Below are positions 3 through 25,920 of a stretch of DNA of 37,202 nt, piece after piece. The DNA comes from Anaerolineae bacterium. GTDB lineage: Bacteria > Chloroflexota > Anaerolineae > Promineifilales > Promineifilaceae. The stretch is taken from NCBI GenBank assembly GCA_024762395.1, contig JANTHP010000003.1, forward strand, positions 1 through 37,202, given 5' to 3'. The translations under genes and the position numbers were made by a program. Under the pieces are notes generated by a model, which saw only the letters and a program-made list of their open reading frames with translations, ran no database searches and had not been told where the DNA came from. Numbering within the stretch: position 1 is the first letter of the stretch; each line of letters starts with the position of its first letter.

Positions 3-611
3 GGCCATTTACAACCGGCAGGCATTCTGGTTTTAGCCAGCTACATTCTGGACGTTTTCGATGGCGCATTGGCGCGTAAACTTAAAGCCAGTTCCGAATT
101 TGGTTTGCAGTTGGATTCATTGGTGGACATGGTAAGTCTGGGTACGGCCCCGGCCGTTCTCGTCTTCATGCACTTGCAGATGGATGGGCTGACGATGGGC
201 TGGATATGGCCGTTTGTTGTCATGATACCATTGGCCGGCGCTTTTCGACTGGCCCGTTTCAATTTGCTGCCGCCTAAAAAAAGCGGTAATTCCGATTCTG
301 TTGGCCTGACCATTTCCACGGGCGGCGCAACGCTGGCCCTGGCTGTTCTGGCCGATTTAGCCATTCCCAGCGAATGGATAAACGATTATTGGTACATCCT
401 TTTGCTTGCTGTTGTGGCCGTTTTAATGGTGAGTACCATCGAATTTCCTTCTCTTAAGGGCGTTTTTTCAGGATGGCGTAAAAGCGCCATTATCCTGTCG
501 CTCTTTGGCGTATCGGTAACGCAAATGCCAATTTTTGCTGCTTGGTTCTTATGGACAAATGCCTACCTGGGTCTTTACGTAGCCCGCGCTGGATATAAGC
601 GATTAAGCTAA
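3..611 (+). CDS. pssA: CDP-diacylglycerol-serine O-phosphatidyltransferase, 3' part
   Basis: Makes phosphatidylserine from CDP-diacylglycerol and serine in the inner membrane, the first step toward phosphatidylethanolamine. The gene is cut by the window edge, and the reading frame is open from base 3, giving 202 visible residues. The CDP-alcohol phosphatidyltransferase signature DGx2ARx8Gx3Dx3D is complete near visible residues 20-42 (DGALAR ... GLQLDSLVD), including all the metal-binding aspartates. Several hydrophobic segments follow (a Trp-Pro-Phe-Val segment, a Leu/Ala-rich segment and two C-terminal ones). The FGLQLDSLVDMVSLGTAP stretch is typical of PssA rather than PgsA. The N-terminal 20-50 residues are missing. 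A TTG at 69 could be mistaken for a start, but the signature begins upstream of it. Family certain; serine as acceptor likely. Confidence 0.85.
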   Translation, partial: GHLQPAGILVLASYILDVFDGALARKLKASSEFGLQLDSLVDMVSLGTAPAVLVFMHLQMDGLTMGWIWPFVVMIPLAGAFRLARFNLLPPKKSGNSDSVGLTISTGGATLALAVLADLAIPSEWINDYWYILLLAVVAVLMVSTIEFPSLKGVFSGWRKSAIILSLFGVSVTQMPIFAAWFLWTNAYLGLYVARAGYKRLS

Positions 612-979
612 TACACAAACAAGTCCTGATGGGTAGCGGAGTCGAGGCTTTAGCCGGTGGCTCCTCTGTAAATGTAGGTCAAGTTTGCAAACTTGACCTA
701 CGACAACATGCTATTTTCATTCATTCGTGGCGCTCCGAAGGCGTGCGGTGGCTCCTCTGTAAATGGGACACGGATGAACACAGGTAAGAGGTGCGTCTCA
801 TTTTTATTTATTTGATGGTGGGCAATTGCCTGTGGCGTCTTCTGTGTAAATGTAGGTCGGATTGGCAATCCGACTTACGATATTCATTTATTCATGGTGC
901 GCCGCAGGCGCGTGGCGTTTTCTGTGTAAATCGAATTGGCAATTCGATGCCCGATTTACCAAACTTGGGGTGAGCATAT
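612..979. repeat. Intergenic region of degenerate direct repeats and palindromes
   Basis: No credible gene is seen here. Imperfect direct repeats recur: GGTGGCTCCTCTGTAAATG at about 655 and 746, with relatives ending TTCTGTGTAAAT near 840 and 920. The blocks at about 716-764 and 882-929 align over some 48 bases. Nested in them are palindromes at 674-701 (perfect, 28 bp), 852-878 (near perfect) and 930-948. The palindromes belong to the same family seen elsewhere in the window. A 60-codon reading frame at 791-973 is built of repeat sequence and looks non-coding. Confidence 0.7.
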
Positions 980-1651
980 ATGACAAGTTTTCGGGATAAA
1001 CTTAGTGGAAATGCGCTTTATTGGCTGTCCCAGATAGCGCGACGAAGCGGCCGTTATCAAGTCAGCGGTTTGGAATATCTACAAGCGGCTCAGACCAGCG
1101 GTAAGCCCCTTGTTTTTGCCACATGGCACGGCATGACGATGATGCTGGTTGGCTTTTTTGCTAACCAATATGACCTCAGCAAGCTGGTCTTGCTCATGCC
1201 TGACGATTGGCGCGGCGAAGCGTTACAAGTGTTCGCCAACAAATTGGGTGCGGAGCCGTTCCCGATGGATTTGAAAGGGGAAGCCAATATGGCGACCGCG
1301 CGGCGGCTGGCAGCTTTGGTCCGTCAGGTCAAAGCGGGTAAGGATGCCTACATTACGCCTGATGGCCCGGAAGGGCCGGCTTACGTTATCAAGCCCGGCG
1401 TCGCCTACATTGCCCAGAAGGCAAAGGCGATTATTTTGCCTTTGGGCGCTTATGCCCGACACGGTTACCGCCTTAACCGTTGGGATCGTTATACCATTCC
1501 CTATCCGTTTAGCCGCATTTCGGTGGTGGTTGGGGAGCCGATGATGGTGGAGAAGGGGGTGGAGTTAACGGCCGTTACCCGCACCCTCACCGACAAACTC
1601 CACCGCATCACCGCCCAAGCCGCCGCCAACTATTACGAGAAAACAAAATGA
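980..1651 (+). CDS. DUF374 lysophospholipid acyltransferase family protein, copy 1
   Basis: Member of the DUF374 branch of the glycerolipid acyltransferase superfamily (223 aa). Such proteins are thought to move an acyl chain to a lysolipid or glycolipid at the membrane; the substrate is not known. The catalytic-type histidine is at residue 50 in ATWHGMTMM, and the DUF374 hallmark PDGPEGP is at 127-133, followed by KPGVAYIAQKA and a PYPF segment near 178. This is close to family length. ATG at 980 follows GGGGTGAG. Its stop overlaps the ATG of the next paralogue (ATGA), so the two are translationally coupled. Together with pssA upstream it suggests a membrane-lipid cluster. Function beyond family level is inference. 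Confidence 0.85.
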   Translation: MTSFRDKLSGNALYWLSQIARRSGRYQVSGLEYLQAAQTSGKPLVFATWHGMTMMLVGFFANQYDLSKLVLLMPDDWRGEALQVFANKLGAEPFPMDLKGEANMATARRLAALVRQVKAGKDAYITPDGPEGPAYVIKPGVAYIAQKAKAIILPLGAYARHGYRLNRWDRYTIPYPFSRISVVVGEPMMVEKGVELTAVTRTLTDKLHRITAQAAANYYEKTK

Positions 1652-21961: not shown

Positions 21962-21990
21962 TTGACAATGGCAGAGGGCTGGGCTACTAT
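21962..21990 (+). promoter_or_regulatory. Strong sigma-70-type promoter of tRNA-Ala(CGC)
   Basis: TTGACA (21962-21967), 17-bp spacer, TACTAT (21985-21990), about 14 bp before the tRNA. It may also supply transcripts of the leuS T-box leader by read-through. Confidence 0.85.
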
Positions 21991-22004: not shown

Positions 22005-22077
<73 letters not shown>

Positions 22078-22108: not shown

Positions 22109-22130
22109 CTATTTACAACAGAATAGATAA

Positions 22131-22280
22131 AAGCTGTGAACAGGAGTAGTAGGCAAGTTTAATTGTCAATTGTTAATGGGTAATTGTCAATTGTCAATGT
22201 TTGTCAATGTATTGAAGAGAGTTGCGTCATTGGCTGCAAGCGCGACAAATTGTATGCTGAACTCGCCTGGAAGCTGTGGG
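22131..22280 (+). promoter_or_regulatory. T-box leader, Stem I (specifier CUC, leucine)
   Basis: Binds uncharged tRNA-Leu in T-box riboswitches. Seen: the 5' strand GAACAGGAGTAGTAGGC (22138-22154); AGAGAG at 22216-22221; the apical hairpin GTTGCG/CGCGAC whose loop reads ATTGGCTGCAAG, close to the usual UUGGUG-AAG; and the specifier side TGAACTCGCC, with CTC at 22262-22264 followed by a purine. GGC 22152-22154 can pair with GCC 22265-22267 below the specifier, and ACAG (22140-22143) with CTGT (22274-22277) at the base. CUC is a Leu codon and leuS lies downstream. The segment between the 5' strand and AGAGAG is unusually long (about 60 nt) and made of AATTGTCAATTG repeats. The matching antiterminator is at 22641, abnormally far away. 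Confidence 0.75.
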
Positions 22281-22292
22281 AGTGAAAATTAG

Positions 22293-22443
22293 TCCTGTAG
22301 TCTCATAGTCGCGTAGTCTCATAGTCGCGTAGTCTCATAGTCGCGTAGTCTGGTAGTCAGTTGTTGACTATTCGACTACAAGACTACCAGACCACCAGAC
22401 TATTCGACTACCAGACTACAAGACTACCAGACTATTCGACTAG
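22293..22443. repeat. Long hairpin of TAGTC-type simple repeats in the T-box linker
   Basis: The left arm has units TAGTCTCATAGTCGCG repeated three times; the right arm has GACTACCAGACTATTCGACTA-type units, so the two halves pair into a hairpin of about 150 nt around GTCAGTTGTTGAC. It sits between T-box Stem I and the tRNA-Ala(GGC) promoter. Confidence 0.75.
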
Positions 22444-22499
22444 CTCTCGCCGGGTAGCGCACGTTATGCGCTTGAGTGGATGGTAGCGCGAAAAAGGGC

Positions 22500-22527
22500 T
22501 TGCTTATCGCGTTTAACCGAGTATAAT
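22500..22527 (+). promoter_or_regulatory. Promoter of tRNA-Ala(GGC)
   Basis: TTGCTT (22500-22505), 16-bp spacer, TATAAT (22522-22527), about 19 bp before the tRNA. The tRNA therefore appears to have its own start inside the T-box leader region. Confidence 0.7.
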
Positions 22528-22546
22528 TCTCACGCTTTACACGCAT

Positions 22547-22619
22547 GGGCCTGTAGCTCAGTTGGGAGAGCACCACAATGGCATTGTGGGGGTCAAGGGT
22601 TCGAGTCCCTTCAGGTCCA
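22547..22619 (+). tRNA. tRNA-Ala (anticodon GGC), nested in the leuS T-box leader
   Basis: Cloverleaf with acceptor GGGCCTG/CAGGTCC (G3-U70 kept), D-arm GCTC/GAGC, anticodon stem CCACA/TGTGG around loop ATGGCAT (anticodon GGC, reads GCC/GCU), T-arm GTTCGAG, and discriminator A. CCA is not encoded. It lies between T-box Stem I and the T-box antiterminator, whose terminator would also end the tRNA transcript. Confidence 0.95.
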
Positions 22620-22640
22620 CTGAAAACTTTTACCATCAAA

Positions 22641-22692
22641 TCAGAGTGGTACCGCGGAACCCCTTTCGTCTCTGAACGAAGGGGGTTTTTTT
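22641..22692 (+). promoter_or_regulatory. T-box antiterminator and overlapping terminator of leuS
   Basis: AGAGTGGTACCGCGG at 22643-22657 is the T-box consensus with the TGGT bulge that pairs with the ACCA end of uncharged tRNA. TCAGAG (22641-22646) can pair with CTCTGA (22670-22675) to form the antiterminator. The competing terminator is AACCCCTTTCGT / ACGAAGGGGGTT (22658-22687), running into a T-tract to 22692. The canonical order is preserved. It begins only 22 nt after tRNA-Ala(GGC), leaving no room for a normal Stem III. Confidence 0.88.
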
Positions 22693-22744
22693 GTTTAATT
22701 ATGAATTGTGACCGGTGAATTGTGAATTGTGAGGTAAGCGCACA

Positions 22745-23362
22745 ATGTACAATTCGCAATTTTTTGTGATGGCTAACGAAATTTGGATTGAAACGGAGTA
22801 CGGGAAGGTGTTTGGGATGGTGGCTGGGCCGGAAAACGGCCGTACTATCCTCGCCATTCACGGTTATTCCCAACGCAACGGCTGGCACACCTGGGAGCCG
22901 ATGATGGCTCCGCTAGCTGAGGCTGGTTTCCGCGTTGTCAGCGTGGATATGCCCGGCTGGGGGCAGAGCGTCCCCACGCAGGGGCAGGTTGGCGGTAAGA
23001 CGGCCGTGATGACGGTTTTGCAGCTTTTGGATGGCCTGAGTGCGGAAACGGCCGTGTTAATGGGCAAAAGTTGGGGCGGAAAAGTGGCGGTAGAAACGGC
23101 CGTTTCCCATCCCCGCCGCATCGCCCATCTCATCCTTACCGCGCCTGCTCTGCGCGACGTAGAGCAGGCTAGAAAAATCAGCCAGCCCGTTTTGCTGGCC
23201 TGGGCCGAGGATGATCCAGTCATTCCATTTTCTTATGCAGCCCGGCTGGCGGCAGCGATTCCAAACTGCCAACTAGAAACTTACCCGACTGGCGGCCACA
23301 GCGCCGCCCCGAAAAATGCGGCCGACTTTGCGCCGAAAGCGATTAAATTTTTACAAAACTGA
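22745..23362 (+). CDS. Alpha/beta hydrolase
   Basis: Short alpha/beta-hydrolase-fold protein, 205 aa. The oxyanion region is HGY (39-41), the nucleophile Ser109 in MGKSWGG, the acid Asp156 or Asp157 in AEDDPVIP, and His185 in GGHSAAP, all in the expected order. The cap is minimal. The substrate is not identifiable; it could be an esterase or a non-catalytic-type relative. ATG at 22745 follows GAGGT at 9-bp spacing; an internal ATG at 22769 is possible. It lies between the T-box terminator and leuS on the same strand, so it is probably under leucine-tRNA control with leuS. Four ACGGCCGT copies fall within it. Confidence 0.85.
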   Translation: MYNSQFFVMANEIWIETEYGKVFGMVAGPENGRTILAIHGYSQRNGWHTWEPMMAPLAEAGFRVVSVDMPGWGQSVPTQGQVGGKTAVMTVLQLLDGLSAETAVLMGKSWGGKVAVETAVSHPRRIAHLILTAPALRDVEQARKISQPVLLAWAEDDPVIPFSYAARLAAAIPNCQLETYPTGGHSAAPKNAADFAPKAIKFLQN

Positions 23363-23475: not shown

Positions 23476-25920
23476 ATGAGTACGTACAATCCTCAAGAAA
23501 TCGAACCCAAATGGCAGGCCAAATGGGAAGAAACCGGCCTGTACCGGCAAGTCATTGACCACAGCAAACCCAAACATTACGCCCTCACCATGCTGCCCTA
23601 TCCCTCAGGCGACCTGCACATCGGCCACTGGTACGCCATGACCCCCAGCGACGCCCGCGCCCGCTTCATGCGCATGAAAGGGTACAACGTCATGTTCCCC
23701 ATGGGCTTCGACAGCTTTGGCCTGCCTGCCGAAAACGCAGCCATTAAACGCAACATCCACCCGCAAAAATGGACCTACGCCAACATCGAACGGATGCGCG
23801 GTCAGCTCCGCAGCATGGGCGCTATGTTCGATTGGGAACGCGAAGCCGTTTCTTCCGACCCTTCCTATTATAAGTGGACGCAGTGGTTTTTTAAGAAGCT
23901 GATCGAATTGGGGTTGGCTTACCGCAAACTGTCGGCGGTAGATTTTTGCCCCACTTGCAACACCACCCTGGCCCGCGAGCAGGTGTGGGGCGATGACCGC
24001 CACTGCGAACGCTGCGGCACGCCCGTCATCAAAAAAGATTTGGAGCAGTGGTTTTTCCGCACCACCGATTATGCCGAAGAACTGCTCGATTTCAGCCAAA
24101 TTAATTGGCCGGAACGGGTCAAAGTGATGCAGACGAACTGGATTGGCAAATCCACCGGCGCAGATGTGGTATTCAAGACGGAGCAGGGCGACGAGATGCC
24201 CATCTTCACTACCCGCCCCGACACGCTGTGGGGGGCGACCTTCATGGTGATGGCTCCCGAACATCCGCTGGTAGACAAAATCACGACGCCGGAGCAGGCG
24301 GACGCGGTGGCCGACTATCGCGCTGCCGCCGCCCGGATGAGCGACATTGACCGCGAATCGGCCGAACGGGAAAAGACCGGCGTTTTCACCGGCGCATACG
24401 CCATCAATCCGGTGAATGGCGAGCGTATTCCCATCTGGATAGCCGATTATGTGTTGATGGGGTACGGTTTTGGCGCGATTATGGCCGTTCCCGCCCACGA
24501 TGAGCGCGACTTTGCCTTTGCCACCAAATTTGGCCTGCCCATCATTGAAGTGATTCGGGGGCCGGAACGCAGCGATGATGACGGCCCGCTGACGGAGGCC
24601 TACATTGCCAAAACGGAAGGTCACATGATCAATTCGGGCCAATTCACAGGCACGCCGACGGCCGAGGGCATCGAAAAGGTGACGGCGTGGCTGGAGGAAA
24701 AGGGGATTGGCAAGAAGGCGATTAATTACCGCTTGCGCGATTGGCTCATCAGCCGCCAACGGTATTGGGGCGCGCCGATTCCGGTGATTTACTGCCCCGA
24801 ACATGGCGCTGTGCCTGTGCCGGATGAAGATTTGCCGGTGATGCTGCCGGAGGATGTGGAGTTTATGCCCACCGGTGAAAGCCCGCTGCGGTTCCATGAG
24901 GGCTTTTTGCACGCCGACTGTCCCATCTGCGGTAAACCGTCCAAGCGGGAAACGGACACGATGGATACGTTTATGTGTTCTTCCTGGTACCAATATCGCT
25001 ACCTCAGCCCCGATTATGACGAAGGGCCGTTTGACCCGGAGGAGGGGGCGTATTGGCTGCCGGTGGACCAGTACACGGGCGGCATTGAACATGCGACGAT
25101 GCACCTGATTTACACCCGCTTCTTCACCAAAGCGATGCGGGAGATGGGGCTGGTGGATTTCGACGAGCCGATGCTGGCGCTGCACAATCAAGGCATGGTG
25201 CTGGGCGAGGATAATGAGAAGATGTCCAAATCGCGCGGCAATGTGGTGGCTCCCGATAATTTGGTGCAGGAGTTTGGCGCGGATACGGTGCGGACGTATT
25301 TGATGTTTTTCACGAAGTGGGAGCAGGGCGGCCCCTGGAATTATGATGGCATTAAGGGGCCGCAGCGGCTGCTGCAAGATGTGTGGGCGATGGCGACGAA
25401 GGCGTATGTGCAGGGCGTGGTTAATGAGAAGGCTGATCGGGCGCTGCGCCGTAAGACGCATCAGACGATTCGTAAGGTGGGGGCGGATTTGGAGAGTTTT
25501 GGCTTTAACACGGCCGTTGCCGCCATCATGGAGCTGCGTAACAGCATCTTGGAAGCCCAACGCCGTGAAAATGTTTATGCCGAAAGCATGGATGAGGCCA
25601 TTGACAACCTGCTCCTGCTGTTGGCCCCCATCGCCCCGCACATTACGGAAGAGTTGTGGGCGCAGCGGGGTAAACCGTACTCCATCCACCAACAGCCCTG
25701 GCCCGAATGGGACGCCGCCATCGCCAAAGAGGATACGATGACGTTGGTGGTGCAGGTCAACGGTAAGGTGCGCGACCGCATTGAGGTTCCCGCCGGCACG
25801 CCGGACGAGGAGCTAAAGGCGCTGGCGCTGGCTTCGGAGAAGATTCAGAAGAATTTGGCGGGGCGGGAGCCGCGTAAGGTGATTGTGGTGAAGGGGAAGC
25901 TGGTGAATATTGTGAAGTGA
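23476..25920 (+). CDS. leuS: Leucyl-tRNA synthetase
   Basis: Class I synthetase charging tRNA-Leu, 814 aa, bacterial type. HIGH is at 48-51 (DLHIGHWYAM) and KMSKS at 582-586 (NEKMSKSRG). A zinc knuckle CPTC ... CERC lies near 157-180, and the CP1 editing domain contains TTRPDTLWGATF and a VPAHDERDF segment. The C-terminal domain ends VNGKVRDRIEVPAG, the usual LeuS tail. ATG at 23476 follows GGAGAG. Upstream are the alpha/beta hydrolase gene and the Leu-specifier T-box, so expression should rise when tRNA-Leu is uncharged. A terminator follows 41 bp after the stop. A long open frame on the opposite strand is a codon-bias shadow. Confidence 0.98.
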   Translation: MSTYNPQEIEPKWQAKWEETGLYRQVIDHSKPKHYALTMLPYPSGDLHIGHWYAMTPSDARARFMRMKGYNVMFPMGFDSFGLPAENAAIKRNIHPQKWTYANIERMRGQLRSMGAMFDWEREAVSSDPSYYKWTQWFFKKLIELGLAYRKLSAVDFCPTCNTTLAREQVWGDDRHCERCGTPVIKKDLEQWFFRTTDYAEELLDFSQINWPERVKVMQTNWIGKSTGADVVFKTEQGDEMPIFTTRPDTLWGATFMVMAPEHPLVDKITTPEQADAVADYRAAAARMSDIDRESAEREKTGVFTGAYAINPVNGERIPIWIADYVLMGYGFGAIMAVPAHDERDFAFATKFGLPIIEVIRGPERSDDDGPLTEAYIAKTEGHMINSGQFTGTPTAEGIEKVTAWLEEKGIGKKAINYRLRDWLISRQRYWGAPIPVIYCPEHGAVPVPDEDLPVMLPEDVEFMPTGESPLRFHEGFLHADCPICGKPSKRETDTMDTFMCSSWYQYRYLSPDYDEGPFDPEEGAYWLPVDQYTGGIEHATMHLIYTRFFTKAMREMGLVDFDEPMLALHNQGMVLGEDNEKMSKSRGNVVAPDNLVQEFGADTVRTYLMFFTKWEQGGPWNYDGIKGPQRLLQDVWAMATKAYVQGVVNEKADRALRRKTHQTIRKVGADLESFGFNTAVAAIMELRNSILEAQRRENVYAESMDEAIDNLLLLLAPIAPHITEELWAQRGKPYSIHQQPWPEWDAAIAKEDTMTLVVQVNGKVRDRIEVPAGTPDEELKALALASEKIQKNLAGREPRKVIVVKGKLVNIVK

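Follow-up and report, generated by a model that had tools for sequence, protein, structure and literature searches.

The window, the entire 37,202-nucleotide stretch of DNA analysed, encodes on its forward strand a leucyl-tRNA synthetase (leuS) preceded by a T-box leader, within which lies a complete tRNA-Ala(GGC) gene. A second tRNA-Ala gene, with a CGC anticodon, is located upstream of the leader, and an alpha/beta hydrolase ORF separates the leader from leuS. The features of the locus are as follows:

21962-21990, + strand: promoter-like site TTGACA-17-TACTAT upstream of tRNA-Ala(CGC) (sequence scan, p=0.005)
22005-22077, + strand: tRNA-Ala(CGC), the upstream neighbour (ARAGORN and Rfam)
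22127-22676, + strand: entire T-box leader, Stem I through antiterminator (RF00230)
22127-22277, + strand: Stem I (RF00230 alignment)
22278-22451, + strand: Stem II, its loop occupied by a repeat hairpin of 8-bp period at 22290-22442 (RF00230, repeat analysis)
22474-22478, + strand: RRRxG purine string GAGTG, a discriminator motif, before Stem III (sequence; PMC7583486, PMC7778990)
22479-22485, + strand: Stem III 5' strand, GAUGGUA (RF00230 alignment, folding, covariation)
22500-22527, + strand: promoter-like site within the Stem III loop, TTGCTT-16-TATAAT (p=0.02 against shuffles)
22547-22619, + strand: tRNA-Ala(GGC), complete, within the Stem III loop (ARAGORN and Rfam, 64.7 bits)
22631-22637, + strand: Stem III 3' strand, UACCAUC, followed by AAA (RF00230 alignment, folding)
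22642-22676, + strand: antiterminator with the T-box bulge (RF00230)
22656-22692, + strand: intrinsic terminator, 14 pairs and a T run (terminator search)
22745-23362, + strand: alpha/beta hydrolase ORF between the T-box and leuS (matches to many alpha/beta hydrolase families, below their cut-offs)
23476-25920, + strand: leuS, leucyl-tRNA synthetase (TIGR00396, 965.6 bits, for 23476-25917)

The leader matches the Rfam T-box family RF00230 over the complete model (positions 1-219 of 219; 22127-22676, 50.8 bits, E=4.6e-10, in permissive mode). The score lies under the Rfam gathering cut-off of 93 because of three insertions, which the alignment places in the Stem I arm (an AT-rich repeat, ~22155-22215), the Stem II loop (151 nt) and the Stem III loop (145 nt), the last consisting of the tRNA-Ala(GGC) and its flanks. 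Stem I contains AGUAGUA at 22145-22151, and GAACTCGCC of this stem is conserved among relatives. The specifier, CUC (CTC in the DNA, 22262-22264), is a Leu codon and matches the regulated synthetase downstream, confirming a preliminary description of this DNA that had proposed a leucine specifier in a T-box. GTGGTACCGCGG, the T-box motif, lies at 22646-22657, and the UGGN bulge, the antiterminator and the competing intrinsic terminator (22656-22689, with its T run) are all present. In PMC7583486 and PMC7778990, the discriminator is described as Stem III flanked by RRRxG...AA; here the corresponding GAGTG-Stem III-AAA arrangement spans the tRNA. Since every testable hallmark of a T-box is found, the leader is, as judged from its sequence, a Leu-specific transcriptional T-box. 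This copy could be weakened, as it scores under the Rfam cut-off and the loops of its Stems I and II have been invaded by repeats. The same genome contains six other T-boxes, none of which has a tRNA inside.

The simple repeats AATTGTCAATTG / AATTGTGAATTG are located in the Stem I arm (22155-22215) and directly 3' of the terminator (22696-22735). The repeat in the Stem II loop (22290-22442), TAGTCxxx with an 8-bp period, has similar copies scattered over many further contigs, both in this genome and in its relatives, showing that a dispersed repeat has invaded the riboswitch loop. Downstream of the leader, a T-box-to-leuS spacing of ~630-880 nt is observed in many members of the window's family. 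In genomes G003, G005 and G013 leuS directly follows the T-box, and thus the extra gene may have joined the operon. A second leuS-like protein, with ~50% identity, is encoded in G014, G003, G015, G021 and G023.

The preliminary description, which had passed over Stem III around the tRNA, the alpha/beta hydrolase ORF before leuS and the conservation in relatives, viewed the T-box as 'interrupted' by the tRNA and offered replacement of Stem III by the tRNA as one alternative. The first view is not borne out, as the tRNA occupies the terminal loop of an intact Stem III and the RRRxG...AA discriminator motif is retained; the second is ruled out by the RF00230 alignment and by covariation, the Stem III strands flanking the tRNA and covarying. 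Across 89 distinct loci, with the strands anchored by the flanking motifs and not by pairing, 5.17 of six Stem III positions are paired on average, compared with 3.40 when the 3' strands are shuffled (z=16.7), the highest mean among 20,000 shuffles being 3.81. Sliding the strands by one base reduces the pairing to 2.5-2.6, and both-sided changes are found in 15 to 42 sequences per Stem III pair. The loci are related, hence not independent; shuffling inside taxonomic groups, which addresses kinship in part, preserves the pairing excess (z=13.3). When the segment comprising Stem III and the tRNA is folded alone, it adopts Stem III with an internal cloverleaf; in minimum-free-energy folds of whole leaders the T-box fold is not the minimum. 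In the window the terminal loop of Stem III, between 22479-22485 and 22631-22637, houses both the tRNA-Ala(GGC) and a promoter-like site. The distance from the base of Stem III to the tRNA is only ~8-17 nt in Bacillota and in many Chloroflexota; in the window's family the Stem III loop spans 59-123 nt and contains promoter-like sites.

The embedded tRNA-Ala(GGC) is complete, as the preliminary description had stated, and the predicted gene displays the cloverleaf, GGC anticodon, G3:U70 pair and A73 that define a functional tRNA-Ala. G3:U70 and A73 are retained in all 139 nested tRNAs, which therefore look like working tRNA-Ala. In a search with a tolerant pattern, the nested gene was the sole tRNA-Ala(GGC) found here, as in most of the 20 genomes examined; two copies are present in Ktedonobacteraceae. 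A further tRNA-Ala, mostly with the CGC anticodon, is usually found ~25-130 nt before Stem I in Chloroflexota. At locus L091 (G018) the tRNA before Stem I (672-745 in leuS orientation) is Ala(TGC), not Ala(CGC).

Most members of the window's family, and seven further families of the class, have the block of tRNA plus terminator ahead of leuS. A pattern joining the tRNA T-loop to the T-box antiterminator was used to scan 84,980 species; among the matches listed are Ktedonobacteria, Thermomicrobia, Caldilineales, soil Chloroflexi and Bacillota, the last including Syntrophomonas, Thermosyntropha, Desulfotruncus, Desulfallas and others. The pattern matched in at least 38 of 400 Chloroflexota-group and at least 47 of 398 Bacillota-group genomes sampled, and its reversed form, used as a control, gave no matches in the same samples. 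These counts are lower bounds, as the pattern misses known cases such as G005. Each of the 139 T-box-linked entries, which include some duplicates of one locus, has tRNA-Ala(GGC) within the Stem III loop of a T-box with a Leu(CUC) specifier, across Chloroflexota/Thermomicrobiota and Bacillota, and leuS is present in the retrieved DNA for 130 of them. RF00230 matches enclose the tRNA in each of 20 further loci tested, 14 of which exceed the cut-off (up to 124.6 bits), and close relatives with the window's layout have T-box scores of up to 98 bits. Cultured species also display the nested layout (e.g. Dictyobacter kobayashii, Desulfotruncus alcoholivorax and Thermosyntropha lipolytica). No other tRNA or other T-box nested in this way was found, the five non-Ala matches to the pattern lacking leuS. 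Locus L311 contains two Rfam group II intron domain matches (~417-1375, minus strand) beside its nested T-box/tRNA-Ala, and has no leuS match within 1.5 kb downstream.

The nested arrangement is not obligatory, since in some relatives the tRNA lies outside the switch or precedes leuS without a T-box. Among 80 sampled leuS loci, 18 are nested, 17 have a T-box without a tRNA, five carry a tandem tRNA-Ala followed by a compact T-box, and 40 have no T-box as judged by pattern. The preliminary description had considered that relatives might possess a compact T-box elsewhere upstream of leuS. In the window's family the tRNA is inside the T-box; such a compact T-box does occur in other families, exemplified by f15 (L327-L331), where tRNA-Ala(CGC) and tRNA-Ala(GGC) lie in tandem upstream of it. 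At seven loci (L341, L343, L344, L348, L349, L361 and L385) tRNA-Ala(GGC) directly precedes leuS with no T-box recognised between them; six of these lack a T-box by pattern and one has only a T-box motif farther upstream. Such pairs reflect either loss of the T-box leaving the tRNA behind or an ancestral tRNA-leuS pair. On a leuS tree, a quick FastTree reconstruction with long branches and regex-based T-box calls, nesting appears at scattered positions in both phyla, with ~21 changes, and is more clustered than expected by chance. Such scatter would be expected if nesting is old and has often been lost, if leuS loci have been transferred, or both. The constant identity and position of the nested tRNA make a single origin with later losses, and perhaps transfers, the simplest view, though not a proven one.

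The positions of candidate promoters bear on how the tRNA is transcribed. In the window, the site at 21962-21990 is the only good candidate before the T-box and likely represents the start of a transcript running into it; scans of the interval between tRNA-Ala(CGC) and the T-box found no significant promoter and no terminator. The proposal in the preliminary description that the nested tRNA has its own promoter is plausible here (p=0.02), as promoter-like sites inside the loop recur across 11 genomes of the window's family (combined P=6e-7), but it does not extend to Bacillota, where the tRNA has no such promoter. The window's family has probably added a putative internal promoter, a lineage-specific addition, and, given the long 5' part of the Stem III loop with its promoter-like sites, the tRNA may also be made alone in this family. 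In Bacillota, a near-consensus promoter (often TTGACA-17-TATAAT) precedes Stem I at 44 of 44 loci, in every case outscoring all candidates within 110 nt upstream of the tRNA (mean best score of 10.5 before Stem I versus 3.0 before the tRNA, P=8e-9). Within the 110 nt scanned, a consensus promoter directly before the tRNA was found at none of these loci. With a single tRNA gene copy and a promoter only before Stem I, the tRNA in Bacillota would have to come from the leader.

We therefore propose, with good confidence, that the leuS T-box leader doubles as the precursor of tRNA-Ala(GGC), a bifunctional RNA with a nested gene in the Stem III loop. The proposal builds on the observed anatomy, its conservation, the covariation, the single gene copy and the promoter positions, and would entail that leader and tRNA are co-transcribed, that the tRNA is excised, that Stem III survives the cleavage and that control depends on leucine. 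One transcript would be initiated at the promoter before Stem I, or, in Chloroflexota, probably before the upstream tRNA-Ala, and would comprise, in order, Stems I and II, the 5' strand of Stem III, the tRNA, the 3' strand of Stem III and then the antiterminator/terminator. As the tRNA lies upstream of the terminator it would be made whether the switch terminates or reads through; attenuation of leuS thus need not alter tRNA supply, and 'aborted' leaders would be tRNA precursors. Stem III would be built from the tRNA's own 5' leader and 3' trailer, uniting the two discriminator purine strings on either side of the tRNA. The preliminary description had suggested that RNase P and 3' processing of the tRNA would cut the sensor from its switch; this may not follow, as Stem III pairing could still connect the two once the tRNA is removed. 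It is also possible that tRNA processing comes after the switching decision. Leader-trailer pairing near the cleavage site slows E. coli RNase P (PMC9433436) and, by analogy, the switch acting first would be favoured. In the window's family the extra promoter in the Stem III loop probably also makes the tRNA independently, such transcripts ending at the same terminator. The terminator at 22656-22692, whose sharing by T-box and tRNA the preliminary description had rightly raised, would stop the two transcripts alike. A more elaborate version, which we regard as doubtful, is that tRNA maturation is coupled to the riboswitch decision, such that leuS senses tRNA-processing capacity (or alanine tRNA status) in addition to leucine charging. 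The chance of the discriminator forming would then be altered when the nested tRNA-Ala(GGC) folds or is excised by RNase P, and Stem III would act as a splint that keeps the cleaved riboswitch working in two pieces.

The tRNA could instead be an independent transcription unit that resides in a tolerant loop, uses its own promoter and borrows the T-box terminator, Stem III being kept only for the T-box and the long transcript being useless for tRNA supply. The 59-123 nt Stem III loop with promoter-like sites in the window's family would fit such a unit, as would the two Ala(GGC) copies in Ktedonobacteraceae and the requirement of any T-box for Stem III (PMC7583486). We consider this unlikely, however, because the Stem III base and the tRNA are only ~8-17 nt apart in Bacillota and in many Chloroflexota, no promoter-like site was found before the tRNA at any of the 44 Bacillota loci, and the tRNA is single-copy where checked.

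It is less likely still that the window T-box is decaying, a remnant that surrounds a working tRNA gene, with leuS no longer under leucine control in this organism. Although the score of 50.8 against a cut-off of 93, the large repeat insertions in Stems I and II and the existence of related loci with tRNA-Ala(GGC) before leuS but no T-box could be read in this way, the leader retains an intact specifier, AGUA motif, antiterminator and terminator as well as the discriminator purines and Stem III pairing, every insertion is confined to loops or arms, and close relatives with the same layout reach 98 bits. Chance juxtaposition or misassembly of a T-box and a tRNA gene, conceivable for a window drawn from a 500-contig draft genome, has a negligible probability: it is refuted by dozens of genomes, assembled independently and including named isolates, that share both this order and this tRNA, and by the absence of matches to the reversed control pattern. 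An artefact of one genome is likewise ruled out by recurrence among relatives and in both phyla.

Stem III has long been treated as a linker. The nested loci indicate that it can host a 75-nt independent RNA and, as nesting recurs across two phyla, a single leader RNA seems to serve as regulatory switch and tRNA precursor alike. If a regulatory leader is the only source of a needed tRNA, the riboswitch 'off' transcripts would not be waste, and a kinetic problem arises in that RNase P must excise the tRNA without disabling the switch. The nested layout also constrains the age and mobility of T-boxes. Its wide occurrence in two phyla, cultured species included, makes these proposals testable. 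A T-box expression platform that hosts a tRNA gene appears to be new, although earlier notice is possible: no description of one was found in PMC7583486, PMC7778990 (the TBDB paper), PMC2494555, PMC4695836 or PMC4052509.

With known leuS T-boxes the leader shares the Stem I specifier loop, the Stem II/IIA-B region, Stem III with RRRxG...AA, the UGGN antiterminator, the intrinsic terminator and leuS downstream; what sets it apart is the complete tRNA-Ala(GGC) gene, of another amino-acid specificity, in the Stem III terminal loop. tRNAs can be processed from longer polycistronic or mRNA transcripts. In Clostridium acetobutylicum a two-codon T-box (Saad et al. 2013, cited in PMC4052509) is likewise a T-box leader that involves two tRNAs, both of which are trans ligands read by overlapping codons; in contrast, the leader here itself encodes the second tRNA, for which no codon was identified. 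rRNA precursors have a leader-trailer helix (PMC10250234), and resemble tRNA-bearing transcripts and the present leader in that a structured RNA is cut from a longer transcript whose flanks pair as a closing helix. In the leuS leader, unlike these precursors, the closing helix would be Stem III, a working part of a riboswitch expression platform.
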